This document shows positions 11,835 to 23,127 of a stretch of DNA of 64,000 nt, one piece after another (positions within the stretch are counted from its first letter, which is position 1; each line of letters begins with the position of its first letter). The DNA comes from Shimia sp. SK013 (GTDB taxonomy: Bacteria; Pseudomonadota; Alphaproteobacteria; Rhodobacterales; Rhodobacteraceae): NCBI RefSeq assembly GCF_001292625.1, contig NZ_LAJH01000011.1, positions 1 to 64,000 on the forward strand, written 5' to 3'. Below the pieces are notes generated by a model, which worked only from the letters and a program-made list of their open reading frames with translations, was not told where the DNA came from and made no database searches. The translations under genes were made by a program, and so were the position numbers.

Positions 11835-12812
11835 TCAGGCCGTGTAAGCAAGTTTCAGACCGGGGCGCGGCCATCGGGTTTTATAGATTTTTTGGGTGCC
11901 TGACGCGGTAATCCAAACGTCGCGCATGTCTTCGCCGCCAAAGCACAGGTTCGTCGTGAAGGGATCGGGCAACTCCAGATGCTCAACCGCGCCATCGAGG
12001 CTGAAGATGCTGATCCCACCGGTGATGAGCGTGCCAACACAAACTCTGCCGTCCGCTTCCACCTTGAGGCTGTCCAGCCATTGATACCCGTCGAGGGTTT
12101 GAATCACTTTGCCGGGCATCCCGACCAACGGGCCTGGTTCCACCTTACCAGCCCCCACAATATTCATCGCCCAAAGCCGCCCAAAAGACGTATCAGAGAC
12201 GTATAGCGTATCGCCATCTGGTGAAATGCCGATCCCGTTTGGTGTCGGAATGGACGCGACCTTCTCCAACGTCTGACCATCAATGGTTGCATAGTAGACT
12301 GCCCCGAAATCGCTGCCTTCCGCGTGCACCGTACCGGTGTCGGTAAACCAGAAGCCCCCGTTTTTCTTGTCAAAAACGATATCATCCGGTGCAATCAGAC
12401 ACTTTCCCTTGTACTTGCAGTAAAGCGTTGTGACCTCTTTTGTTTTCAGATCTACCCGCTGGATTTCTCCGCCCTGGTATTTTGGATTCATCGGGATCGG
12501 AACGTTAACCACTCGCGCTGGGTTGGCTTTGCGCCCAGACCCCGGAGGCGCGGAAGGATCCATTTTGGCAAACCCGTAGACACCACCATTGTTGCAGACA
12601 TATGCGGCCCCATCCGGCCCGATGGCCAGACCGTTCGGCCCACCAGGAAGTGTCGCAATTTCTTCGAGCGTCCCGTCCGGGTGCAGTTGCATCAGGGTTT
12701 GGTATTCAATGTCCACGAACAGGATCGACCCATCATCCATCGCCACTGGGCCCTCAGGAAACCCCAACTTGCTCGCCACTTCTTCAACGTTGTCTTCAAG
12801 CTTATATGACAT
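11835..12812 (-). CDS. SMP-30/gluconolactonase/LRE family protein
   Basis: The 325-residue six-bladed beta-propeller protein of the SMP-30 family includes gluconolactonases and other lactone hydrolases. The visible markers are LGFPEGPVAMDDGSILFVD with the metal-type Glu, GGPNGLAIGPDGAAYVCNNGG, and PNGIGISPDGDTLYVSDT, which carry the Asn/Asp calcium or zinc ligands. ATG 12812 (MSYKLEDN) is chosen because TGGAG lies at good spacing; the frame extends to 12896 but that extension looks random. No signal peptide is seen. It sits alone upstream of the cyclase gene on the same strand, separated by about 120 bp. Hydrolysis of a sugar or other lactone is the likely role, with the substrate unknown. 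Confidence 0.85.
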   Translation of the reverse strand: MSYKLEDNVEEVASKLGFPEGPVAMDDGSILFVDIEYQTLMQLHPDGTLEEIATLPGGPNGLAIGPDGAAYVCNNGGVYGFAKMDPSAPPGSGRKANPARVVNVPIPMNPKYQGGEIQRVDLKTKEVTTLYCKYKGKCLIAPDDIVFDKKNGGFWFTDTGTVHAEGSDFGAVYYATIDGQTLEKVASIPTPNGIGISPDGDTLYVSDTSFGRLWAMNIVGAGKVEPGPLVGMPGKVIQTLDGYQWLDSLKVEADGRVCVGTLITGGISIFSLDGAVEHLELPDPFTTNLCFGGEDMRDVWITASGTQKIYKTRWPRPGLKLAYTA

Positions 12813-13538
12813 CAAAACACTCCATTGAGGTTTTGGCACGCGAGCAATTTTCCGCGTTACCATCTGAACGAATGTACCGTTGAGCGCCCCTATCAAGTCA
12901 ACAAGTATTAACCCAAGGGTGCCTTTGGCACTTATTCGACCTCGACCCGCCGTCTCAGGATGTCGCGACAGATACCTATTTCGAAACTATCAAGATGTTC
13001 GTTCCTGCCGCGTCGCGGAAAAGCAAAGCAGAAACCGTCGCGGCGTTGATCTTTTGAATTTTGATCCAGAACCAGTGATCGGCATTGCCGTTTGAGGAGC
13101 TGGGCGTCAATCAGTTGCCGCAATACGATAAAAATGCTGCCCAAGTATCATAGTCGTTTTCTCCATTAGCTATGCTCTGCGGCCGTTGTCCCCGTGGATT
13201 TTTCTAACGAAAATGACCGCAGGCAAAAGCAGGTGAAAGTCCGGCAATTTGACATTTGTACGTTACTGAACTTTGAAAGGCTCGGCTCCAGTGCACAGCC
13301 GACCTTGGTCCACTGCGCAGCATTTGGGGACACTTCAGGGCGGCCTGAATGGCGGTTTCCAACTGTTCGCGACGGGGATTTTTCTGTTGCTGCTAAAGTC
13401 CGGTTTCCGCCCATACTGGCGGGTGACCGATGATTAACTTTGGATGGTATCAAGCACCCGCAACCAACAAAACCAATCGCCAATGCTCTTCATTCAGGCG
13501 CCGGGTCATCAACTCTTACCTTATCGCTTGCTACCCTT
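12813..13538. other. Long intergenic stretch without a recognised gene
   Basis: About 725 bp lie between the SMP-30 gene and the end of the DUF849 operon. I find no convincing coding sequence on either strand. AAAGTCCGG occurs twice, near 13238 and 13397, and the region 13190-13440 has the look of the dispersed intergenic sequences seen in Roseobacter chromosomes. That is an impression which cannot be tested from one window. The SMP-30 promoter should lie immediately above 12812. Confidence 0.45.
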
Positions 13539-14474
13539 TCAGAAAGAAACCTTGTCGCCACCTTTGAGGTCCAGAATTTCACGGGCTTCGTCCGGGGTGG
13601 CGACTTCGCATCCCAAGTCCTCGACAATGCGCCGGATTTTGGCGACTTGCTGAGCATTGCTTTCAGCCAGTTTTCCGCGGGTGATGAACAGGCTGTCTTC
13701 CAGCCCGACGCGCACGTTGCCGCCCATCTGGCTTGCAGTCGAGGCAAGGCCCATTTGAGATCCGCCAGCCCCCAGAACGGACCAACGATAGTCATCGCCA
13801 AACAGCCGATCGGCCGTGCGCTTCATGAAGACCAGGTTGTCCACCTCGGGGCCAATGCCGCCAAGGATGCCAAAGATGAACTGAATAAACACAGGCGCCT
13901 TGAACAGGCCGATGTCCATGCAGAATTTCAGATTGTAAAGATGGCCGACATCATAACATTCATGTTCGAATTTGATGTCATGCGGGGCGAGGGTGTCTGC
14001 GGCTTCTTTGATGTCACGGAACGTGTTGCGAAAGATGTTTTGATCCGAGTTGGCAACATAGTCTTTTTCCCAATCGAATTTCCAATCATCGTCTTTGTAA
14101 CGGTTCGCCAACGGATGGAACGAGAAGTTCATCGACCCCATATTCATCGAGCACATTTCTGGCGAAAAAGTTTTGGCCGGCGTGATGCGGTCTTGGATCG
14201 CCAACGTCAGTGAACCGCCGGTGGAAATATTCAGAACGGCATCTGTCGCTTGCTTGATGCGCGGTAGAAACGGCGCAAAATCGTTAGGGTTCACCGAGGG
14301 CGCACCGGTTTCGTTGTCGCGTGCATGTAGGTGCAGGATGGAGGCGCCGGCCTCTGCGGCATCCATCGCCTGTTGGGCGATGTCGTCATAGGTATAGGGC
14401 AAGGCGTCCGACATGGTGGGCGTGTGGATCGCGCCGGTTACGGCACAGGTGATGATGGTTTTTTGTTTTGCCAT
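13539..14474 (-). CDS. DUF849/BKACE family beta-keto acid cleavage enzyme
   Basis: The 311-residue TIM-barrel enzyme exchanges a beta-keto acid with acetyl-CoA to give acetoacetate and a new acyl-CoA. The zinc His pair is seen in ILHLHARD (H48, H50). Further conserved elements are NISTGGS, KFEHECYDVGHL and VRVGLEDSLF, the last holding the conserved Glu. It is the last gene of the operon, 12 bp after livM. A pathway in which a beta-hydroxy acid is oxidised by the upstream 3-hydroxyacyl-CoA-dehydrogenase-like enzyme and then cleaved here fits well and parallels carnitine degradation, where the same two families act. The actual substrate is unknown. Confidence 0.93.
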   Translation of the reverse strand: MAKQKTIITCAVTGAIHTPTMSDALPYTYDDIAQQAMDAAEAGASILHLHARDNETGAPSVNPNDFAPFLPRIKQATDAVLNISTGGSLTLAIQDRITPAKTFSPEMCSMNMGSMNFSFHPLANRYKDDDWKFDWEKDYVANSDQNIFRNTFRDIKEAADTLAPHDIKFEHECYDVGHLYNLKFCMDIGLFKAPVFIQFIFGILGGIGPEVDNLVFMKRTADRLFGDDYRWSVLGAGGSQMGLASTASQMGGNVRVGLEDSLFITRGKLAESNAQQVAKIRRIVEDLGCEVATPDEAREILDLKGGDKVSF

Positions 14475-14486
14475 TGGTCTGGCTCC

Positions 14487-15506
14487 TTAGGATGGGTTGC
14501 GTTTGATAACGCGGTAGCCAAGTGGGAAGATTTGGATATCAAAGCGGCTGCGGATCAGGCCCCAGAGACCTTTGGGGGCCTTGAGCATGACAACAATTGC
14601 GACAACGCCGAGCACAATCAGATAAGTGGTGCCTAAGTCGGCGAGCGTTTCGCGCAGCAGGAAAAACACCAATGTACCGATGATCGGACCTTCGATGGTG
14701 CCGATGCCGCCGATCACAACGATGAAGATCACAAAGGCGGTCCAGTCGTTCACGCTGAAGGCGGCGTCTGGAGAAATCCGCAATTTCTGCAAGAAGATCA
14801 GCGCACCGATCATGGCTGTGAAAGCTGATGTCACCACATAGACGATAAATTTGGTGCGCCAGATGTCGATGCCAAGGCTGCTTGCAGCGGTTTCGTTGTC
14901 GCGGATGGCAGTCAGAGCCAAGCCTTTGCGAGAGCGAAGGAAGAAGTAGACAGCGGTGATGACCAACACGGCAGCGCCTAGCGCAAGCCAGTATGACAGG
15001 CTTTCACGCAAGGCGCGCTTGCTGGCCAGTGATCTGACAATCGCGACGGGTAAGGATGATCCCGAGCCGCCGCCGAGTGTTGATATTTGCGCAAACCCCA
15101 GTCGGAACACCTCTGCGATGACCCAGGTGCCGATGGCGAAATACGCGCCGCGAAGGCGGAAAATAAGGACCGCCACCGGGATCGAAATCAACGCGCCCAG
15201 AACTCCGGCAAGGGCAATAGCAGCAACAGGGTGCAATCCGCCAAACATTGTCAGTGCAAACAACATGTAGCCGCCAAAGCCGACATATGCCTGTTGGCCG
15301 ACAGAGACCAAACCTGCATAGCCCGCCATCAGGTTCCACAGGCTGGCAAGCGCAAGATAAAGAAACAGCTCTCCCATCAAGCGCATATCGGCGCGGCCGG
15401 CCCACCACGGGGCGGCGATCAGAAGAATGAGAACAAGCCCGCCAAGTGCGGCGCCAACGCGGGCCGCCTGTGAGGAGCGGGTGACGGAATAGGTGGGCGT
15501 GGTCAT
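14487..15506 (-). CDS. livM: Branched-chain-amino-acid-type ABC transporter permease (LivM)
   Basis: The 339-residue inner-membrane permease of the LivM type has about ten hydrophobic segments. The signature stretches are NLMAGYAGLVSVGQQAYVGFGGY and the C-terminal EAA-like region with SLGIDIWRTKF. ATG 15506 is chosen because GAGGAT precedes it and because it overlaps the livH stop by ATGA; the upstream extension to 15587 is not expected to be real. Together with LivH, LivG, LivF and the Tat-exported binding protein it forms a complete importer. LIV-type systems in such clusters frequently import compounds other than amino acids, so the symbol describes homology and not substrate. Confidence 0.92.
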   Translation of the reverse strand: MTTPTYSVTRSSQAARVGAALGGLVLILLIAAPWWAGRADMRLMGELFLYLALASLWNLMAGYAGLVSVGQQAYVGFGGYMLFALTMFGGLHPVAAIALAGVLGALISIPVAVLIFRLRGAYFAIGTWVIAEVFRLGFAQISTLGGGSGSSLPVAIVRSLASKRALRESLSYWLALGAAVLVITAVYFFLRSRKGLALTAIRDNETAASSLGIDIWRTKFIVYVVTSAFTAMIGALIFLQKLRISPDAAFSVNDWTAFVIFIVVIGGIGTIEGPIIGTLVFFLLRETLADLGTTYLIVLGVVAIVVMLKAPKGLWGLIRSRFDIQIFPLGYRVIKRNPS

Positions 15507-16366
15507 GCCGAAATCCTCGGAAACAGGCCGTTGGGTCGAACGGCAAGGATGATCAAAAAGGCGATGTGGCCGGAAAGGATTTGCCAACCGGGATCGATTT
15601 TAGCGCCCACGGTTTGCGCCACGCCCAGGATGACGCCACCAGCAAGCGTGCCCCAAAGGTTGCCCAGACCGCCAATGATCACAGCCTCAAAGCCAAAGAT
15701 CAGGCGCCCACCGCCGATAGAAGGATCAAAGCTTGTACGAATACCTAGAAGGATGCCCGCAACAGCCGTCACCGCCAGCGCAAGCGCCATAGCGAGGCCA
15801 AAAATGTGTCGCCGATTAAGGCCCATCAGCTGCGCGATATCCTGATTGTCGGACACCGCGCGAAAGGCGCGTCCCAAAGGCGTGTGATAAAAGACGCGTT
15901 GCAGACCCCAAATCACAACAACGGCAATCGCAAAAGTCAGTGCTGGCAACACACCAAGTGTCAGCCCGCCGAGGCCAAAGCTTGCAGTCTCCAATGCGCC
16001 TGCGCTCAGTTTTTGCGGATCCGCGGTGTAGCCTTCCAAAAGGGCGTTCTGGATGATCACACTCAGCCCGAATGTCACCAGCAAAGGCGGCAGAAGATCA
16101 TCGCCCAGAGTTTGGTTGAGCAAGCCGCGTTGCAATGCGTAGCCGATGGCGGCCATGACAGGGACGACCAACACCAATGCCAGCAAAGGATGCATTCCGG
16201 TTGCTGTGGTGACCGTCAGCCCCAAATAAGCTGCCAAAACTATTAAGTCGCCATGGGCGATGTTCACCAAGCGCATGACCCCGAAGATCAGGGACAGCCC
16301 CGCGGCAAAGAGCGCATAAAGCCCGCCCAAGAGGGTGCCTTGCACGACTGCGTTCAGCCAATCCAT
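15503..16366 (-). CDS. livH: Branched-chain-amino-acid-type ABC transporter permease (LivH)
   Basis: The 287-residue permease of the LivH type has eight or so membrane segments. It begins MDWLNAVVQGTLLGGLYAL and has the conserved FGVMRLVNIAHGDL segment and AFRAVSDNQDIAQLMGLN cytoplasmic coupling region. ATG 16366 is one base from the livF stop; the longer frame to 16507 would overlap livF deeply and is rejected. It pairs with livM to form the channel of the importer in the DUF849 operon. Confidence 0.92.
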   Translation of the reverse strand: MDWLNAVVQGTLLGGLYALFAAGLSLIFGVMRLVNIAHGDLIVLAAYLGLTVTTATGMHPLLALVLVVPVMAAIGYALQRGLLNQTLGDDLLPPLLVTFGLSVIIQNALLEGYTADPQKLSAGALETASFGLGGLTLGVLPALTFAIAVVVIWGLQRVFYHTPLGRAFRAVSDNQDIAQLMGLNRRHIFGLAMALALAVTAVAGILLGIRTSFDPSIGGGRLIFGFEAVIIGGLGNLWGTLAGGVILGVAQTVGAKIDPGWQILSGHIAFLIILAVRPNGLFPRISA

Positions 16367-16367
16367 A

Positions 16368-17075
16368 TTATTCGATCCCGAAATAGGCGCGGGAGATATC
16401 CTCGCGCGACACAGTGTCAGAGCCGCCTTCCAGCGACACGCGTCCTTCTTGCAAGCAGTAGACCCTTGAGGACACAGAAAGCGCCTTAGTGATGTCCTGT
16501 TCGACAATGATGGCGCTCATGCCTTGGCCGATGATGCCGGGCAGAGCTTTGTAAATGTCTTTGATGATCACGGGCGCGAGGCCGAGGCTGATCTCGTCAA
16601 ACAAGATCAGGTCAGGGTTGGCCATCAATGCCCGGCCAATCGCGACCATCTGTTGCTGCCCACCCGAAAGTGACGTCGATTGCTGATCCCTGCGCTCTTC
16701 CAAAATGGGGAACAGATCATAGACGGCATCCAGACTCCAAGGCCCATTGCGCCCGACTTGCGCCCCAATCATTAGGTTTTCTTTGACTGATAGCGACGGA
16801 AACAGCTGCCGCCCCTCCGGCACCATTGCAATGCCACGCATGGCAATTTCATCCGCTCGCAGACCGCCGATATCAACACCGCTATGGCTAATCTGGCCAG
16901 GCCCGCTTTTGAGCAGGCCCGTAATGGCGCGCATCAGCGTGGTTTTCCCGGCACCATTGGCGCCAATGATGGCGAGCACTTCGCCAGCATCGATGTGCAT
17001 GTCCACGCCATAAAGCGCCTGGAAATCGCCATAGTGGGCATCAAGCCCAGTCATGTTCAAAAGAGCATCAGGCAT
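16368..17075 (-). CDS. livF: ABC transporter ATP-binding protein (LivF)
   Basis: The 235-residue ATPase has Walker A GANGAGKTT, signature LSGGQQQM, Walker B DLILFDEISLGLAP and the switch His in IVEQD(I). The start at ATG 17075 overlaps the livG end by eight bases, consistent with translational coupling; the frame extends to 17141 but that part lies inside livG. It energises the LIV-type importer of this operon together with LivG. Confidence 0.93.
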   Translation of the reverse strand: MPDALLNMTGLDAHYGDFQALYGVDMHIDAGEVLAIIGANGAGKTTLMRAITGLLKSGPGQISHSGVDIGGLRADEIAMRGIAMVPEGRQLFPSLSVKENLMIGAQVGRNGPWSLDAVYDLFPILEERRDQQSTSLSGGQQQMVAIGRALMANPDLILFDEISLGLAPVIIKDIYKALPGIIGQGMSAIIVEQDITKALSVSSRVYCLQEGRVSLEGGSDTVSREDISRAYFGIE

Positions 17076-17796
17076 CAGCTTCGATCCCCAGATAAATCTC
17101 TTTGACCTGCGGGCTTTCCATGATGGCCTTGGGGTCGCCATCTGCGATCAACTTGCCGAAATCAACCACGATCAGACGGTCCACCACGGAGAGCAGCGCG
17201 TGCACGACGTGTTCAATCCAAATGATGGTCACGCCGCTGGCGTGAATGTCTTTTATGGTGTGAATCAACGACTGACATTCCGCCTCAGTCAGGCCGCCCG
17301 CAATTTCATCCAGCAAAAGGAGGTCCGGTTTTGTGCAGAGCGCGCGGGTGAGTTCCAACCGCTTGCGCTCCAGAAGCGTCAAGCTGCCTGCCAACACGTT
17401 GGCTTTCCCCATCAACTCGGTTTGCTCCAGCACTTCGATACAGTGGGCTTCTGCCGCGTGACCATGGAGGCCCGCCGATTGTGTGGCCGCGATCATTGCG
17501 TTCTCAAACACTGTCATGCCAGAGAACGGTTGCGGTACCTGAAAGCTGCGTGCGATGCCTGCGTGACTGCGCCGCGCGGCGCTCCAGCCTGAGATGTCTT
17601 TGCCTGCAAACTCGATGCGTCCGCTGTTTGCTTTGAGCGTGCCGGTGATCAGGTTGAACATCGAGGTTTTGCCTGCACCATTGGGGCCCAAAATCCCAAG
17701 CGCTTCTCCGCGTTGCACCTCATAGCTTTGATTGTCGGCAACAGTGACGGCACCAAATGCTTTTTTGAGGTTTTGGAGTTTTAGGATTGCTGTCAT
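17068..17796 (-). CDS. livG: ABC transporter ATP-binding protein (LivG)
   Basis: The 242-residue ATPase has Walker A GPNGAGKTSM. Its signature region is SLTLLERKRLELTRAL rather than a classical LSGGQ, as is often seen in LivG. Walker B is PDLLLLDEIAGGL. ATG 17796 (MTAILKLQNLKKAFG) is chosen from homology; the longer frame to 17931 would overlap the binding-protein gene. It follows the substrate-binding-protein gene after a 61-bp gap that holds a strong hairpin, which probably sets a lower transporter-to-binding-protein ratio. Confidence 0.92.
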   Translation of the reverse strand: MTAILKLQNLKKAFGAVTVADNQSYEVQRGEALGILGPNGAGKTSMFNLITGTLKANSGRIEFAGKDISGWSAARRSHAGIARSFQVPQPFSGMTVFENAMIAATQSAGLHGHAAEAHCIEVLEQTELMGKANVLAGSLTLLERKRLELTRALCTKPDLLLLDEIAGGLTEAECQSLIHTIKDIHASGVTIIWIEHVVHALLSVVDRLIVVDFGKLIADGDPKAIMESPQVKEIYLGIEADA

Positions 17797-17821
17797 CCGG
17801 ACTGCTTTCTTGAAGTAAATC

Positions 17822-17849
17822 CGCGGCGCCAAAAAAGTATGGCGCCGCG
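17822..17849 (-). terminator. Perfect 10-bp hairpin between binding-protein gene and livG
   Basis: The arms CGCGGCGCCA (17822-17831) and TGGCGCCGCG (17840-17849) are perfect complements around an eight-base loop, in the 61-bp gap after the substrate-binding-protein gene. No U-tract follows it on the minus strand, so it is more likely an mRNA-stabilising or partial attenuation structure than a full terminator. Hairpins in this position are a known way to raise periplasmic-binding-protein expression over permease genes. Confidence 0.7.
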
Positions 17850-17857
17850 CAAATGCG

Positions 17858-19138
17858 TTAGCCGAGCAGTTTAAGGTCGGCTGTGACAGGGATTTGAGGT
17901 GCCGCCGAATTGGCGACGATTTCCAGCTCAAAGCCGCTGTCGCCCTTCTGCCACTGACCTGCGACTAGAGGCGTCTTTGTGACGTTGTTGATCGGGCCGT
18001 TGGACCAATCGACAGGACCTACAATTGTGTCCAGCAGCGTGCCGGCAATTGCGGCTGTAATTGCCTTGGGATCTTCGAGATCTGCGGCGCGTTTCACCAC
18101 ATCTGCCACCACTTCAAACAGCGCGTGCTTAAAGCCGATCGGCTGCGTCCATGGGCGACCGCTGTCTGCGGTATAGCCCATGGCCAGTTCTTTGGCCGAA
18201 GCGCCCGTCAGTGAAGAGGCAAACGGATGGTTTGGTGACCACCAAACCTCGGAGCTGAGCCCGTCGCCGCGATCTCCTAGGCTTTCGATGACGGATGGGA
18301 ACAACAGGGCCTTGCCGATCGTCACGATCTTGGGATTAAAGCCCTGCTGGGCCGCTTGCGCCCAGAACGTGGCAAAATCTGGTGGGATCATATTGCCGGT
18401 GACGATTTCACAGCCAGCCTCTTTGAAGGCCGCAATATAGTTTGAGAAATCATCTGACAGCGGTTGATACCGACCCGGATCGACCAAGTCATAACCAGCT
18501 GCCGCCAAGGGCGTGGGCAGGCCCAGTTCCGGATGTCCCCAAGCGTTGCCGTCTGCGTCGTTGGGGAACAGCCCGCCGACATTTTTGGCGACGCCGCTGC
18601 CGCCCCACATGTCAAGAAACGCCCCGATGACGTCCTCAAGTCCCCAGAAGAAGTGATACGTTGAGGCAAAGCCTTCGCCGGGCACGCCGTTGCGGCCAAA
18701 GAAATATGGCTGCCACGGACAATCGGTTGTGATGCACGGCACTTCGTTGATCTCGGCCTGATCGGCGACGGGGTTCACGGTGTCTGGCGTTGACGCCGCG
18801 ACAATGATGTCGACTTCTTCGCCAAGGATCAGATCCGCGGCAACTTCGGCGGCGCGGTTCGGGTTGGACTGACTGTCCTTGGAGATGATCTCTACGTTCC
18901 AGTTTTTGCCGTTGTTTTGCAAACCGGACGACAGCGCGGCCTCAATTCCCTTGAGCACAAAATCGTCGGCCTCGGCAAAACCGGCCAGCGGGCCGCTGCG
19001 TGGGCTGACATGGCCGATTTTGAGCGTTGGTGTGGCAGCATAGGCCCGCGTTGATTTGAGCAACGCAGGCGCAGCAATCGCTGCTGTTGCCCCGGTCAGA
19101 AACGCTCGCCGCGTAGGTGTTCTGAATATCTTGGTCAT
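17858..19138 (-). CDS. Tat-exported ABC transporter substrate-binding protein (LivK-like)
   Basis: The 426-residue periplasmic binding protein starts with a twin-arginine leader: TRRAFLTG near residue 10, a hydrophobic core AAIAAPALL, and a likely cleavage after YAA (about residue 35). The mature part begins TPTLKIGHVSPRSGPLAGFAEADDF, typical of Peripla_BP_6/LivK proteins. Its repeated DIIVAASTPDTVNPVADQAE and PCITTDCPWQPYFF segments line the ligand cleft. Tat export suggests folding before secretion. It is encoded just upstream of livGFHM and downstream of the dehydrogenase. The ligand should be the operon's growth substrate, which I cannot name. Confidence 0.92.
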   Translation of the reverse strand: MTKIFRTPTRRAFLTGATAAIAAPALLKSTRAYAATPTLKIGHVSPRSGPLAGFAEADDFVLKGIEAALSSGLQNNGKNWNVEIISKDSQSNPNRAAEVAADLILGEEVDIIVAASTPDTVNPVADQAEINEVPCITTDCPWQPYFFGRNGVPGEGFASTYHFFWGLEDVIGAFLDMWGGSGVAKNVGGLFPNDADGNAWGHPELGLPTPLAAAGYDLVDPGRYQPLSDDFSNYIAAFKEAGCEIVTGNMIPPDFATFWAQAAQQGFNPKIVTIGKALLFPSVIESLGDRGDGLSSEVWWSPNHPFASSLTGASAKELAMGYTADSGRPWTQPIGFKHALFEVVADVVKRAADLEDPKAITAAIAGTLLDTIVGPVDWSNGPINNVTKTPLVAGQWQKGDSGFELEIVANSAAPQIPVTADLKLLG

Positions 19139-19184
19139 GTGGTGGTCCTCCCTTATCCCCAGCCTCCCCGCCGGGGTTTCTGAT

Positions 19185-20111
19185 TTATGTTTCCAGAATG
19201 GTCTCTAGTTTGGTCAGATGGCTGGCGACTCGCGCCCGCACATCGTCGGCTTCCTGCTGGGTCCAGGTGCGAAACCCCTGACCTGATTTCATGCCAAGCT
19301 TGCCGGCCTCGACCAGCCCTTGCAGATACGGCGAAGGGCCTTGTCTCGCTTCGAGATCAAAGAGCACGTTTTCGTGGATATCGAGCGTCAGATCCGTGCC
19401 CACCAGATCGGCGTTCTCCAACGGGCCAAGCACGGCCAGACGTCGACCAAAACTGGATTTGATCACCGTATCTACGGCCTCGGCGTCGCAAATGCCGTTT
19501 TCCACAAGGCTCACCGCCTCGCGCCACAGCGCATGTTGCAAGCGATTGCCAATGAAACCCGGCACATCTTTGGCCACCATTACCGGAGTTTTTCCAGCGT
19601 CAGCCAACAGATCGAACATGGTTTGTGCCACCGCCGTATCCGTCCATTCGGTTTTCACGACTTCGACAAGCGGGATCATGTGTGGCGGGTTCCACCAATG
19701 GGTGCCAACTGCGCGGTTTTTCAAACGCAGATCGCTCATGATCTCTGTGATCGGCATCACCGACGTGTTGGACGCCAGAATGCAATCATCCGGAGCGTGC
19801 GCTTCGATCTCCGCGAAAATCGCTTTCTTCAGCGTCATCTTTTCAGGCGCCGCTTCAAACACCACGTCGGCGGACGCAACGGCTTCGGCGGTGCTGACTT
19901 CGACGTTGATGCACGCTATGGCGCTTGGTAATTCACTGTCTGCGCAGCCCATGTCGGCCATGCTTTGGGCAATACGGTCTTTGACGGACTCACGCGCCGC
20001 GTCGACTGGGTCCGTGATCGCCACTTTGTGACCCGCCCGCGCCAAGGTGAGCGCGATACCGTGACCCATCAGGCCGGCGCCGATTACCGCGATGTTTTTG
20101 CTAGTCCCCAT
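19185..20111 (-). CDS. 3-hydroxyacyl-CoA dehydrogenase family oxidoreductase
   Basis: The 308-residue NAD-dependent enzyme has a Rossmann nucleotide site GAGLMGHG at the N-terminus. THWWNPPHMIPLVEVVKT carries the catalytic His and Glu region, and the PGFIGNRLQHALWREAV helix starts the C-terminal domain. The HWWNPP form is typical of family members acting on free or unusual beta-hydroxy acids, such as carnitine or gulonate dehydrogenases, rather than simple acyl-CoAs. It lies three bases after the SDR gene. Paired with the DUF849 enzyme it could oxidise a beta-hydroxy acid to the beta-keto acid that is then cleaved. The substrate remains inferred only by class. Confidence 0.9.
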   Translation of the reverse strand: MGTSKNIAVIGAGLMGHGIALTLARAGHKVAITDPVDAARESVKDRIAQSMADMGCADSELPSAIACINVEVSTAEAVASADVVFEAAPEKMTLKKAIFAEIEAHAPDDCILASNTSVMPITEIMSDLRLKNRAVGTHWWNPPHMIPLVEVVKTEWTDTAVAQTMFDLLADAGKTPVMVAKDVPGFIGNRLQHALWREAVSLVENGICDAEAVDTVIKSSFGRRLAVLGPLENADLVGTDLTLDIHENVLFDLEARQGPSPYLQGLVEAGKLGMKSGQGFRTWTQQEADDVRARVASHLTKLETILET

Positions 20112-20114
20112 GGG

Positions 20115-20900
20115 TCAGCCCGCCGTATATCCACCGTCGGCATACAAAATATGCCCGGTGTAGAAATCGGATGCCTTGGAGGCGAGGAACAGCAGCGGCC
20201 CGCCCAGGTCTTCGGGCTCACCCAACCGTCCTTTGGGGACGCGCGCGAGAAACCCGTTGCGTACTTTGGTAGCTTCTTCGGTGTCTTCGTACATCCATGC
20301 CGTCAGCGGTGATCTGAAGACGGTTGGCGCAATGGCGTTGACGGTGATCCCTGTGGGACCAAGTTCACATCCAAGCGCCTTGGTGATGCCGTCCACTGCC
20401 GCCTTTGACGCGCAATAGGCGGTATAACCGGCTGGATGACCCAGCAAGCCGCGTGCGGAGGAGACGAGCACAATTTTCCCGCCATCACCTTGGGTTTTCA
20501 TCTGTGCAGCTGCCGCGCGGGCCAATAGCCAGCTTTGTGTGACATTGGCGTCCATCACGGCGCTGAAATCTGACGGCGTCATGTCATTGATTAACGCCAC
20601 TTTGTTCATGCCAGAGGCAACAACGAGGATATCAAGCCGCCCAAAACCCGCCACCGCTTCGGCGATTAGGGCTTCACAAGCGTCTTCATCGTTAGGGCGG
20701 GTGTTTACGGTTACAACAGCCGCACCGATCTCGCGGCATTCTGCGGCGATCTCATCCAACGCAGTCTGGTTGCCAGCGGCCAATACAAGGTTGCAGCCCG
20801 ATCCGGCCAAAATGCGGGCGGCGACCATGCCAAAGGCGCCGGAAGCGCCAGTAATGAGGGCGACGTCATCCTTAACGTCAAACATTGAAAGCGGGTTCAT
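20115..20900 (-). CDS. Short-chain dehydrogenase/reductase (SDR)
   Basis: The 261-residue classical SDR has a cofactor motif TGASGAFG, an inner NAG-like motif, active-site Ser in VSSARGLLG and the YxxxK pair in YTAYCASK. It ends in DGGYTAG, as typical of FabG-like enzymes. An NAD(P)-dependent oxidation or reduction of an alcohol is expected. It is packed between the cupin (3 bp) and the hydroxyacyl-CoA-dehydrogenase-like gene (3 bp), so it belongs to the same catabolic route, but the step is unknown. Confidence 0.92.
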   Translation of the reverse strand: MNPLSMFDVKDDVALITGASGAFGMVAARILAGSGCNLVLAAGNQTALDEIAAECREIGAAVVTVNTRPNDEDACEALIAEAVAGFGRLDILVVASGMNKVALINDMTPSDFSAVMDANVTQSWLLARAAAAQMKTQGDGGKIVLVSSARGLLGHPAGYTAYCASKAAVDGITKALGCELGPTGITVNAIAPTVFRSPLTAWMYEDTEEATKVRNGFLARVPKGRLGEPEDLGGPLLFLASKASDFYTGHILYADGGYTAG

Positions 20901-20903
20901 GGC

Positions 20904-21260
20904 TTATGCCTCTTGCTTGGTTTCTGGCGGATAGGGGATCACAACGAGCATGGTGCAGGTGTCATTGCGTCGGTTTTCGATTTTGCGGATCTCGCCGGGC
21001 GGAATGGTGCAGCTGTCGTGTTTGCAGAGCGTGGTTTCGACGCCATCTATGATCACGGTCATCTCGCCATCCAAAACGACATAGACCTTCTCGAAAGGCG
21101 TGGAGTCCGGACCAGCCCCGCCGCCGGGCAAAAACTGGCTCAACCCGACCCATTGGTTGGTGGGGCCACCTTCTTCAAACCCTTGCAGCCGCAACCCATG
21201 ACAGCCGAAATGGTTGGGGGCCTCATAAGGCTGTGCATCCTGAAAGCGTTTTACGTGCAT
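20904..21260 (-). CDS. Small cupin protein
   Basis: This 118-residue cupin has a less canonical motif 1 (FEKVYVVLDGEMTV) and a motif 2 (HDSCTIPPGEIRKIENR). The usual metal His residues are only partly present, so metal binding is uncertain. AAGGA precedes ATG 21260 at normal spacing. An intrinsic-terminator-like hairpin lies just upstream, between it and the cyclase-family gene. It could act as an isomerase, decarboxylase or binding protein in the pathway. Confidence 0.85.
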   Translation of the reverse strand: MHVKRFQDAQPYEAPNHFGCHGLRLQGFEEGGPTNQWVGLSQFLPGGGAGPDSTPFEKVYVVLDGEMTVIIDGVETTLCKHDSCTIPPGEIRKIENRRNDTCTMLVVIPYPPETKQEA

Positions 21261-21275
21261 CTGCGCATTCCTTCG

Positions 21276-21302
21276 AAAAAGGCCGCCGCCTAGGCAGCGG
21301 CC
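21276..21302 (-). terminator. Intrinsic terminator/attenuator after the cyclase-family gene
   Basis: On the minus strand the stem GGCCGC/GCGGCC (arms 21297-21302 and 21281-21286), with further internal GCC/GGC pairing, is followed directly by TTTTT at 21276-21280. This is a good Rho-independent structure. It sits in the 60-bp gap between the first and second genes of the operon, so it would partially separate hydrolase expression from the rest of the pathway. Confidence 0.7.
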
Positions 21303-21320
21303 AGTTGGGAGTGGTGTTGC

Positions 21321-22157
21321 TTAGAAGCCTTCGCCGGGTTCGATGCGGTAGCCTTGGCCTTTGTCCATCATCGCCACGAGGCGAATGATGCAGCCGTCGC
21401 CGCGATCCCAGTTCCAAGGGAAGAACGCGAAGGTACAGCGTTTTCCGGTGACCGCATCCAGATCGCCGCCGACATTCTCGATGCCGAGAATTCCTTTGGA
21501 GAACAGAAGGTTGTGAACAGGTTCCCACTCGGGGAAATCAACGTCCCAAGGAACGCCGCCGGACCATTCGAGATATTCTTGCTCAAGATGCGGCAAAATC
21601 GGGCCGTTGCGTTGTGGACCGATTGCAGTCGCCAAGGGGTGGTCATTGGCCTGTGTATCGTGTCCAACAACTTTGACACCCTTTTCGATCATCCATTCAG
21701 CGGCAGAGGACACGAGGCCGGGGCAATAGGCAAAATAGTCGCCGTCCTCATATTGCTTGTGCCAACCGGTGTTGATGATCAACACATCACCCGGTCGGAT
21801 CGCGTGACCGCACGCTTTCTCAAGGTCGTCGCCCGTGATCTTCTCCCACTTCTTTTTGGGGATCGACACAACCAAACCGGACCCAAAGAAATGCGGCAGC
21901 GGCACTTCGTCAATGAACGGTGTGCCGGGGACAACGTGGGCCGGCGCGTCGATATGCGTGGTCACGTGCATTGTGGTGGTGATTGTTTGGCTCAGAACAC
22001 CGGACTTGGCCATGTAGTGCTTTCGGTCAATCTGAACATCTTTGAAATAGGGCCAGTTCGGGCACTGGAACCCATAGCGGTGGCTGAGGTTATAAAACTC
22101 CAGCCCCATGTCGTTGTCAGTGTTTCCCTGAAACTCAATGCCGCGAACTTCTACCAT
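21321..22157 (-). CDS. Cyclase-family (kynurenine formamidase-like) metal hydrolase
   Basis: The 278-residue protein of the cyclase family has the metal signature HVTTHIDAPAH (H64, H68, D70, H74), with a further HDTQANDHP segment. Families in this fold open or cleave amides and lactones, for example kynurenine formamidase and isatin hydrolase. ATG 22157 is chosen because GAGGAG lies nine bases upstream; the ATG at 22166 abuts it. It is the first gene of the ten-gene operon and divergent from iclR. A ring-opening or amide-cleaving first step of the pathway is a reasonable guess. Confidence 0.9.
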   Translation of the reverse strand: MVEVRGIEFQGNTDNDMGLEFYNLSHRYGFQCPNWPYFKDVQIDRKHYMAKSGVLSQTITTTMHVTTHIDAPAHVVPGTPFIDEVPLPHFFGSGLVVSIPKKKWEKITGDDLEKACGHAIRPGDVLIINTGWHKQYEDGDYFAYCPGLVSSAAEWMIEKGVKVVGHDTQANDHPLATAIGPQRNGPILPHLEQEYLEWSGGVPWDVDFPEWEPVHNLLFSKGILGIENVGGDLDAVTGKRCTFAFFPWNWDRGDGCIIRLVAMMDKGQGYRIEPGEGF

Positions 22158-22253
22158 TGGGCACATCTCCTCTGTTCGCCGACCAGCGGCGTTTTCGATT
22201 GCAAAATGTCAGGGTGGCTCCTCCCACCTGTCTCGCATAGTGATGCATATGCA

Positions 22254-22371: not shown

Positions 22372-23127
22372 GTGGCTGATACAGAAGACAAAAACTCTAG
22401 ATCTGGAATTCAGGTCATTGCCCGTGCCGCAGCAGTCCTGCGAATCCTGAAGGATGCTCAAACAGGAATGAGCCTTGGCCAAATCGCAGAACGCGTTGGC
22501 TTGCCCCGCTCTACGGTACAGAGAATCACAAGCGCTTTGGCCAAAGAAAACCTTGTCATCGCCGCGCCCCAGGGACGTGGATTGATTTTAGGCCCCGAAT
22601 TTTCGTCGCTCGCGGGCGCTGCCCCTTACAACATTGTCGAGCATTGCCGCCTGTTGCTGACCGAATTGACGCACAAGACCGGTGAAACCGCTGACCTCGC
22701 TGTCATGCGCGGCATTGGTATGGTGTTCTTGGACCAGGTTCCCGGGACGCATCGTTTGACTACAGTTTCGCAGGTCGGTGAGGTTTTTCCTTTGACCACC
22801 ACGGCAAATGGCAAAGCGTGTTTGGCGCGCCTTCCGCGAGAGGAGGCAATTCCGCTCATTCAAAATGAATGGAGCCGAAATGGCATAACTGGCGACATCG
22901 AGGCTTACTTACTTGATCTGGAGAAAGTCGCGCACGAAGGCCTTGCCTATGATTTGGACGAGCATTCAGGAGGCGTGTCTGCAATCGGCTTTGCCTTTGA
23001 AGACTGGGCTGGTGATTTACATGCCATTTCGGTGCCAGTTCCCTCGTCGCGTTATGATGCGCAATGCGGCATAATCGAGCGGGCCTTGCGCGAAACCGCG
23101 GCCAACATTCAGGCGACTTTCGACTGA
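22372..23127 (+). CDS. IclR family transcriptional regulator
   Basis: The 251-residue regulator has an N-terminal winged helix (about residues 13-75: VIARAAAVLRILKDA, then SLGQIAERVGLPRSTVQRITSAL). An effector-binding domain ends in SVPVPSSRYD and ALRETAANI, typical of IclR. It begins at GTG 22372; the ribosome-binding site is weak. Divergent placement from the ten-gene operon makes it the likely local regulator, with the operon's substrate or an intermediate as ligand. Confidence 0.92.
   Translation: MADTEDKNSRSGIQVIARAAAVLRILKDAQTGMSLGQIAERVGLPRSTVQRITSALAKENLVIAAPQGRGLILGPEFSSLAGAAPYNIVEHCRLLLTELTHKTGETADLAVMRGIGMVFLDQVPGTHRLTTVSQVGEVFPLTTTANGKACLARLPREEAIPLIQNEWSRNGITGDIEAYLLDLEKVAHEGLAYDLDEHSGGVSAIGFAFEDWAGDLHAISVPVPSSRYDAQCGIIERALRETAANIQATFD

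Follow-up and report, generated by a model that had tools for sequence, protein, structure and literature searches.

Ten minus-strand genes at positions 13539-22166 of a 64,000-nucleotide stretch of the Shimia sp. SK013 genome (contig NZ_LAJH01000011.1, positions 1 to 64,000; hereafter the window) form a putative operon that joins a cyclase-family hydrolase, a small cupin, a short-chain dehydrogenase/reductase (SDR), a hydroxyacyl-CoA-dehydrogenase-type enzyme (HADH), a complete LIV-type ABC importer, and a BKACE-family enzyme. From sequence comparisons, we propose that this operon encodes a catabolic pathway of the reductive phloroglucinol type in which the SDR may use NADH and the cupin would be a fixed fifth intracellular protein, a reading that we hold with a probability of roughly 0.78. 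The first-pass annotation of this DNA had presented the pathway as undescribed, but the same four enzyme classes act in a published route. In Clostridium scatologenes, it runs through PGR (an SDR), DPGC (cyclase family), TfD (HADH-like), and TAL (BKACE family), all four of which have been purified, and the route has also been reconstituted (PMC10470551). The route itself is thus already known, and what differs here are the importer, the BKACE subfamily, the cofactor site of the SDR, and a conserved cupin. Because neither the NADPH-site arginine of PGR nor the tryptophan of the C. scatologenes TAL (CsTAL) is present, we call the operon a variant that would work like the phloroglucinol pathway.

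A conserved operon with its own importer

The genes are transcribed in the order cyclase, cupin, SDR, HADH, binding protein, two ATPases, two permeases, and BKACE (Table 1), neighboring genes overlap by up to 8 bases or lie at most 61 bases apart, and Pfam matches back the class of all ten proteins. This agrees with the first-pass annotation, which had described a ten-gene DUF849/LIV-transporter operon and a self-contained catabolic unit with a full importer of its own: One PF13458, two PF00005, and two PF02653 proteins make up a complete LIV-type set. The operon end given earlier, 22157, is an alternative candidate ATG of the cyclase gene. As for the Tat export that had been claimed for the binding protein, a twin-arginine-like signal (TRRAFL) is found near its N-terminus, as read by eye.

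A scan of a genome collection for relatives of the BKACE yielded 528 proteins, and the loci of the best 80 of these were taken for comparison. Sixty-five loci, called long loci below, reach 9.5 kb or more on the side of the operon, while the 15 shorter ones were excluded from the counts. All ten genes together with a divergent IclR-type regulator gene are present in 60 of the 65 long loci at a coverage of at least 60%, and in 62 of them if no coverage limit is applied, so that the linkage goes beyond chance and the neighborhood comparison suggested in the first-pass annotation came out in favor of a conserved unit. The five incomplete cases are L050, L051, L074, L079, and L084; the cyclase, the cupin, and the IclR gene are each found in 64 of 65 long loci, and 4 of the 15 shorter loci are complete as well. 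In the rhizobial loci L060 and L080, the genes are kept but divided between both flanks of the regulator. Motif and conservation counts refer to core rows, i.e., the window plus those of the 80 loci whose copy was retained after filtering by score and length (70 for cyclase and SDR, 71 for the cupin). Of 295 genomes sampled from the family at nearly one per genus, 33 gave a cyclase match at E <= 1e-60; G315, one of the 33, contains only the related two-cyclase type described below.

Signatures of the four enzymes

We compared the operon proteins with the C. scatologenes enzymes through the features that PMC10470551 gives for them. In the clostridial DPGC (CsDPGC), Trp20 and Tyr22 take the place of the substrate residues of isatin hydrolase (PMC10470551), and W38-P39-Y40 of the window cyclase matches this Trp/Tyr signature. 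The motif WPYF is found in 71/71 core cyclase rows, in all six plasmid clusters (L087-L090, L092, and L093), and in L112 from a genome of another class, while ten cyclases of other clusters lack WPY; in the Shimia genome (4,049,808 bases in 28 contigs), the operon cyclase is the sole PF04199 match. A structure model of this protein was weak (mean pLDDT 62) and was not used. The earlier view that a cyclase-family hydrolase is alien to the known route thus falls, since DPGC itself belongs to this family, and of the suggestion that a ring or an amide is opened first, the ring part stands, the enzyme being fit to open one.

The closest solved relative of the operon SDR is 5g4k/5g4l with 175.6 bits, followed by a different molecule at 142.6 bits. 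The PDB record title of 5g4k names merely an SDR-family oxidoreductase, but we take it to be phloroglucinol reductase. When 5g4k was searched against the Shimia genome, the operon SDR came out on top of 19 matches (175 bits, 42%; runner-up 102 bits, 30%). A maximum-likelihood tree of 32 rows places 5g4k, the operon SDR, 14 sampled core SDRs, and six plasmid-cluster SDRs in one clade (98/92), next to which the SDR of the clostridial locus L090 joins (99/99). Moreover, a PTVFRS-x-(L/V)T-x-WM loop is present in 5g4k and in 71/71 core rows and absent from 4nbu and 8wwf. The operon SDR would therefore group with phloroglucinol reductase, provided that 5g4k is that enzyme.

The PTVFRS-type SDR together with an HADH also adjoins five of the ten cyclases without WPY (two each in L091 and L116, one in L117). 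These belong to a related type of cluster with two adjacent or fused WPY-less cyclases (L091:11171-17118, L116:2113-4930, and L117:6666-10363), which possibly acts on a different aromatic substrate; a cupin is found in L091 and L117, and a fumarylacetoacetase-type enzyme stands in place of the BKACE in L091.

The HADH keeps the catalytic residues S117, H138, and N189, while its CoA-contact positions hold neither lysine nor asparagine as read from one pairwise alignment with shifted numbering. The C. scatologenes TfD (CsTfD) is likewise reported to lack CoA contacts (PMC10470551), and the operon enzyme seems to fit this signature. Its partner, the BKACE, exceeds the cut-off of NF053538, a model named "3,5-dioxohexanoate:acetyl-CoA acetone transferase" (Table 1), and its nearest solved relative, BKACE15, takes 3,5-dioxohexanoate among other substrates (PMC11961710). 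The pairing is suited to oxidation followed by cleavage, as had been proposed from the outset.

Proposed pathway

What the sequences show directly are the gene set, how well it is conserved, the homologies, and the motifs; from these we infer each reaction, the substrate, the cofactors, the regulation, and the role of the cupin. The LIV-type importer would bring in phloroglucinol or a close relative, and the SDR would reduce the phloroglucinol ring to dihydrophloroglucinol. From this, the cyclase-family hydrolase would produce 3-hydroxy-5-oxohexanoate by a retro-Claisen hydrolysis that opens the ring. Oxidation by the HADH-type enzyme would give 3,5-dioxohexanoate (triacetate), and the BKACE would convert 3,5-dioxohexanoate and acetyl-CoA to acetoacetyl-CoA and acetoacetate. 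A CoA-transferase subunit encoded elsewhere in the genome (TIGR02429, 215.7 bits) could activate the acetoacetate. The IclR protein is probably a sensor of the substrate or of an intermediate, and the cupin is perhaps a keto-enol tautomerase or an enolate-binding helper. Because the NADPH-site arginine is lost, the SDR may use NADH, and in that case its reduction and the HADH oxidation would cancel without net redox change; besides the lost arginine, this idea builds on an aspartate of the HADH, Asp34, with which its second strand ends.

The operon thus shares with the C. scatologenes pathway the four enzyme classes in one cluster, a BKACE-family last step, an SDR of the PGR clade, the W-P-Y of the cyclase, and a dehydrogenase with catalytic residues but without CoA contacts. 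It differs in having a LIV-type ABC importer where C. scatologenes has a major-facilitator transporter (PMC10470551), in its conserved cupin, and in its host, which came from surface sediment of the Skagerrak and has been described as aerobic, although its genome also holds genes suggesting anaerobic respiration (PMC4818494). With respect to an earlier publication of the same gene set, the match is therefore limited to the four enzyme classes: Neither "cupin" nor "ABC transporter" occurs in the main text of PMC10470551, so that the cupin does remain outside the known route as far as this text goes, and the same holds for the LIV-type importer. Phloroglucinol clusters have been reported from a genome search in marine alpha- and gammaproteobacteria (PMC10470551). 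Our literature search, which did not extend to most subscription journals, found no publication that deals with the roseobacter operon, its importer, or its cupin.

A separate setting is seen in the anaerobe Acetoanaerobium noterae (L090), where a cupin homologue (50% identical) stands in an uninterrupted row with homologues of the SDR, HADH, cyclase, and BKACE. The next gene scores slightly below the PhlG/DAPG-hydrolase cut-off (22.1 versus 22.7 bits), and about 3 kb beyond it lies a chalcone isomerase domain (195.6 bits), a setting that fits the flavonoid-to-phloroglucinol route.

If the assignment is right, genes annotated as cyclase, cupin, SDR, 3-hydroxyacyl-CoA dehydrogenase, and 3-keto-5-aminohexanoate cleavage protein become one testable pathway, and a conserved cupin is exposed that goes unmentioned in the main text on the published one (PMC10470551). 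Phloroglucinol is a structural unit of polyphenols in plants and algae, and brown-algal phlorotannins consist of phloroglucinol units. An operon of roseobacters that imports and degrades such units would therefore be a gene marker for marine polyphenol carbon turnover.

The cupin as a conserved fifth protein

Nine residues (Y12, H17, G27, G39, Y60, D82, S83, R92, and N96) are invariant across 81 cupin rows, comprising 72 core and nine divergent ones. The structure model of the window cupin is nearest to TM1459 among solved folds (Foldseek, E 7.7e-07), a manganese cupin, with general cupins also named. PDB titles give His52, His54, and His58 of TM1459, and we assume that His92 is its fourth metal ligand. 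Unlike in TM1459, these four positions hold D52, T54, K58, and R92 in the window protein, for which metal binding of the usual kind is therefore not expected.

Used as the sole query against 398 genomes sampled from the phylum, the cupin was matched in 10 (E <= 1e-12). In seven of these, which include the window and several close relatives, it occurs with the cyclase, SDR, and HADH; in the other three, its companions are an intradiol dioxygenase, an SDR, another BKACE (TGNLT type), and a Zn-dehydrogenase (L109:9650-13603, L110:9899-13899, and L111:9762-13838). A BKACE lies in the same gene run in nine of the ten genomes; the tenth, one of the seven with a cyclase, is cut by a contig end before the BKACE. 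The presence of the cupin in dioxygenase-BKACE clusters means that it is not exclusive to a phloroglucinol-type pathway and suggests a wider role for it in aromatic routes that end in a BKACE; that it handles enol or keto-acid intermediates is our guess.

We can take these ideas one step further, though only as a rather doubtful proposition: Bacteria of oxygenated sea water and surface sediment might run an NADH-in/NADH-out phloroglucinol route with a high-affinity importer, and the cupin without metal ligands might be a step missing from the published pathway, i.e., an Arg/Lys tautomerase or enolate-handling enzyme that is general to BKACE-ending aromatic pathways including the dioxygenase-type clusters. 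Were this true, an NADH-closed route with a high-affinity importer would be suited to phlorotannin monomers at low concentration.

Evidence against the assignment and rival explanations

Several observations weigh against a phloroglucinol-type pathway. The NADPH-site arginine of 5g4k is replaced by glycine in 71/71 core SDR rows, and the operon SDR lacks the published NADPH-site motif of PGR, TR(S/N), so that we do not file it as an NADPH-dependent PGR. The SDR slot of L090 and L112 is occupied by another SDR, which keeps an arginine but has no PTVFRS loop, and the occurrence of PTVFRS-type SDRs beside WPY-less cyclases in L091, L116, and L117 means that this SDR is not bound to the WPY cyclase alone; long branches also meet in the SDR tree, as the tool warned. 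For the HADH, the top NCBIfam model is FHMPC dehydrogenase NF042925 (247 bits, cut-off 500). The BKACE belongs to another subfamily than CsTAL, whose TGAW tryptophan is an isoleucine here, and is therefore not filed as CsTAL-type. BKACEs of its subfamily also sit in modules without a DPGC-type cyclase or such a cupin, including that of BKACE15 itself, and for this reason the NF053538 match does not fix the substrate; the BKACE of L110 passes this model though no cyclase adjoins. Of the 25 places listed from 164 records with a BKACE15-like protein, five loci were examined and compared by a profile of our own rather than by NF053538; none of the five has a DPGC-type cyclase, although L120 holds another cyclase (34.7 bits). 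Finally, no PhlG/DAPG hydrolase was found in the Shimia genome by a search whose controls were silent too and which thus carries little weight. As to the BKACE slot, the clostridial L090 enzyme has the tryptophan while the mycobacterial locus L089 has a short BKACE with isoleucine, and different subfamilies in one slot suggest that what is conserved is the substrate of this slot.

In a first rival explanation, a related ring, such as a methyl-, acyl-, or carboxy-phloroglucinol, a small phlorotannin, or another cyclic 1,3-diketone, would be imported whole and degraded by the same chemistry. The residue differences from the clostridial enzymes speak for this alternative, as does the acceptance of several short neutral keto acids by the BKACE15-type subfamily (PMC11961710), and the pairing of PTVFRS-type SDR and HADH with other cyclases and, in L091, with a fumarylacetoacetase-type enzyme indicates that the module has diversified. 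We nonetheless consider it unlikely, since the cyclase motif equals that of DPGC and the window holds no extra tailoring enzyme, none being needed to define the operon in the 60 complete long loci either. Very unlikely, in our view, is a route that starts from triacetic acid lactone or a 3,5-dihydroxyhexanoate lactone, which the cyclase would open, while SDR and HADH would oxidize hydroxyls and the BKACE would cleave 3,5-dioxohexanoate. Such a route would end in the same intermediate and suit both BKACE and HADH, but the SDR groups with PGR, the clostridial homologue lies in a flavonoid-type setting, and our literature search found no publication on triacetic acid lactone breakdown.

The first-pass annotation had likened the dehydrogenase/BKACE pair to carnitine catabolism (carnitine 3-dehydrogenase and BKACE), which shares the order of oxidation and BKACE cleavage. 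A route of this kind for carnitine or another beta-hydroxy acid, with cyclase and cupin as bystanders, could draw on the LIV-importer/HADH/BKACE modules without a DPGC-type cyclase that do exist (L120 and L123 as annotated, L119 by eye; among them that of the crystallized BKACE15 of Paracoccus denitrificans) and that resemble the operon in importer type, HADH class, and BKACE subfamily. By profile search, however, these three modules lack a DPGC-type cyclase, such a cupin, and a PGR-clade SDR; their HADHs reach only 171-186 bits on the operon HADH profile, and those of four such modules 171-191 bits. The operon HADH in turn scores far below the cut-offs of carnitine 3-dehydrogenase NF005716 (160 bits, cut-off 592) and NF005471 (126 bits, cut-off 414), and cyclase and cupin are hardly bystanders given their near-universal presence in the long loci. 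The carnitine reading is poor because the genome holds a separate carnitine-type pair on contig C11 around 100667 (L002), composed of a BKACE and a dehydrogenase of 571 bits against the cut-off of 592, with its frame cut by the locus end, next to a GbdR-like regulator that is below its own cut-off; we regard this explanation as extremely improbable. Three further candidates were rejected: lysine fermentation through Kce (operon BKACE 234.7 bits, cut-off 382); vitamin B6 degradation, given the NF042925 score cited above; and the deoxyribonate route, considered for the adjoining gene described below. A BKACE takes part in the latter route.

Distribution, neighboring genes, and minor observations

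Genes for cyclase, cupin, SDR, HADH, and BKACE are also found on two plasmids of sphingomonads, amid genes annotated for aromatic breakdown. An MFS transporter lies within the gene run of one plasmid (L087) and no transporter in that of the other (L088), which marks the importer of the phloroglucinol-type operon as an exchangeable part. A gene for an MBL-fold hydrolase is inserted in the operon of Pacificitalea and, elsewhere, in that of Aminobacter (L092:12915-13898 and L093:15394-16362), and the Aminobacter insertion occupies the spot expected for the binding protein. On a contig labeled as a Euryarchaeota bin (L083), IclR, cyclase, cupin, SDR, HADH, and BKACE genes are found at 48-88% identity to the window; this is likely a mislabeled or mixed bin.

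Table 1. Genes of the operon and its divergent regulator in the window.
Feature	Position	Strand	Evidence
Cyclase-family hydrolase, proposed dihydrophloroglucinol ring-opening enzyme (DPGC-like)	21321..22166	-	PF04199 116 bits; W38-P39-Y40
Small cupin without the usual metal ligands	20904..21260	-	PF07883 40 bits; cupin fold model pLDDT 87
SDR of phloroglucinol-reductase clade, proposed ring reductase	20115..20900	-	Best PDB match 5g4k, 175.6 bits
HADH-type dehydrogenase, proposed 3-hydroxy-5-oxohexanoate dehydrogenase	19185..20111	-	PF02737/PF00725; S117, H138, N189
LIV-type importer binding protein, twin-arginine-like signal	17858..19138	-	PF13458 128 bits; signal by eye
ABC importer ATPase 1 (LivG-like)	17068..17796	-	PF00005, PF12399
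ABC importer ATPase 2 (LivF-like)	16368..17075	-	PF00005
ABC importer permease 1 (LivH-like)	15503..16366	-	PF02653; start at 16366
ABC importer permease 2 (LivM-like)	14487..15506	-	PF02653
BKACE, proposed 3,5-dioxohexanoate:acetyl-CoA cleavage enzyme	13539..14474	-	PF05853 347.5 bits; NF053538 533.3 bits, cut-off 430
Divergent IclR-type regulator, probable operon regulator	22372..23127	+	ORF; IclR-type by eye and from annotated homologues

The nearest downstream gene, which ends 642 bases away from the BKACE stop, is an SMP-30/gluconolactonase-like gene (named by eye) at 11835-12896 on the minus strand. It has no match of at least 40% identity in loci L007-L095 and was therefore placed outside the unit, which also led us to reject the deoxyribonate route. 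Terminator-like sites are not in excess over shuffled sequence (11 found versus a mean of 10.5). Two minus-strand hairpins inside the operon, both G+C-rich and with T runs, lie in the cyclase/cupin gap (21281-21302) and in the binding-protein/ATPase gap (17822-17849), and both are possible candidates for partial terminators.

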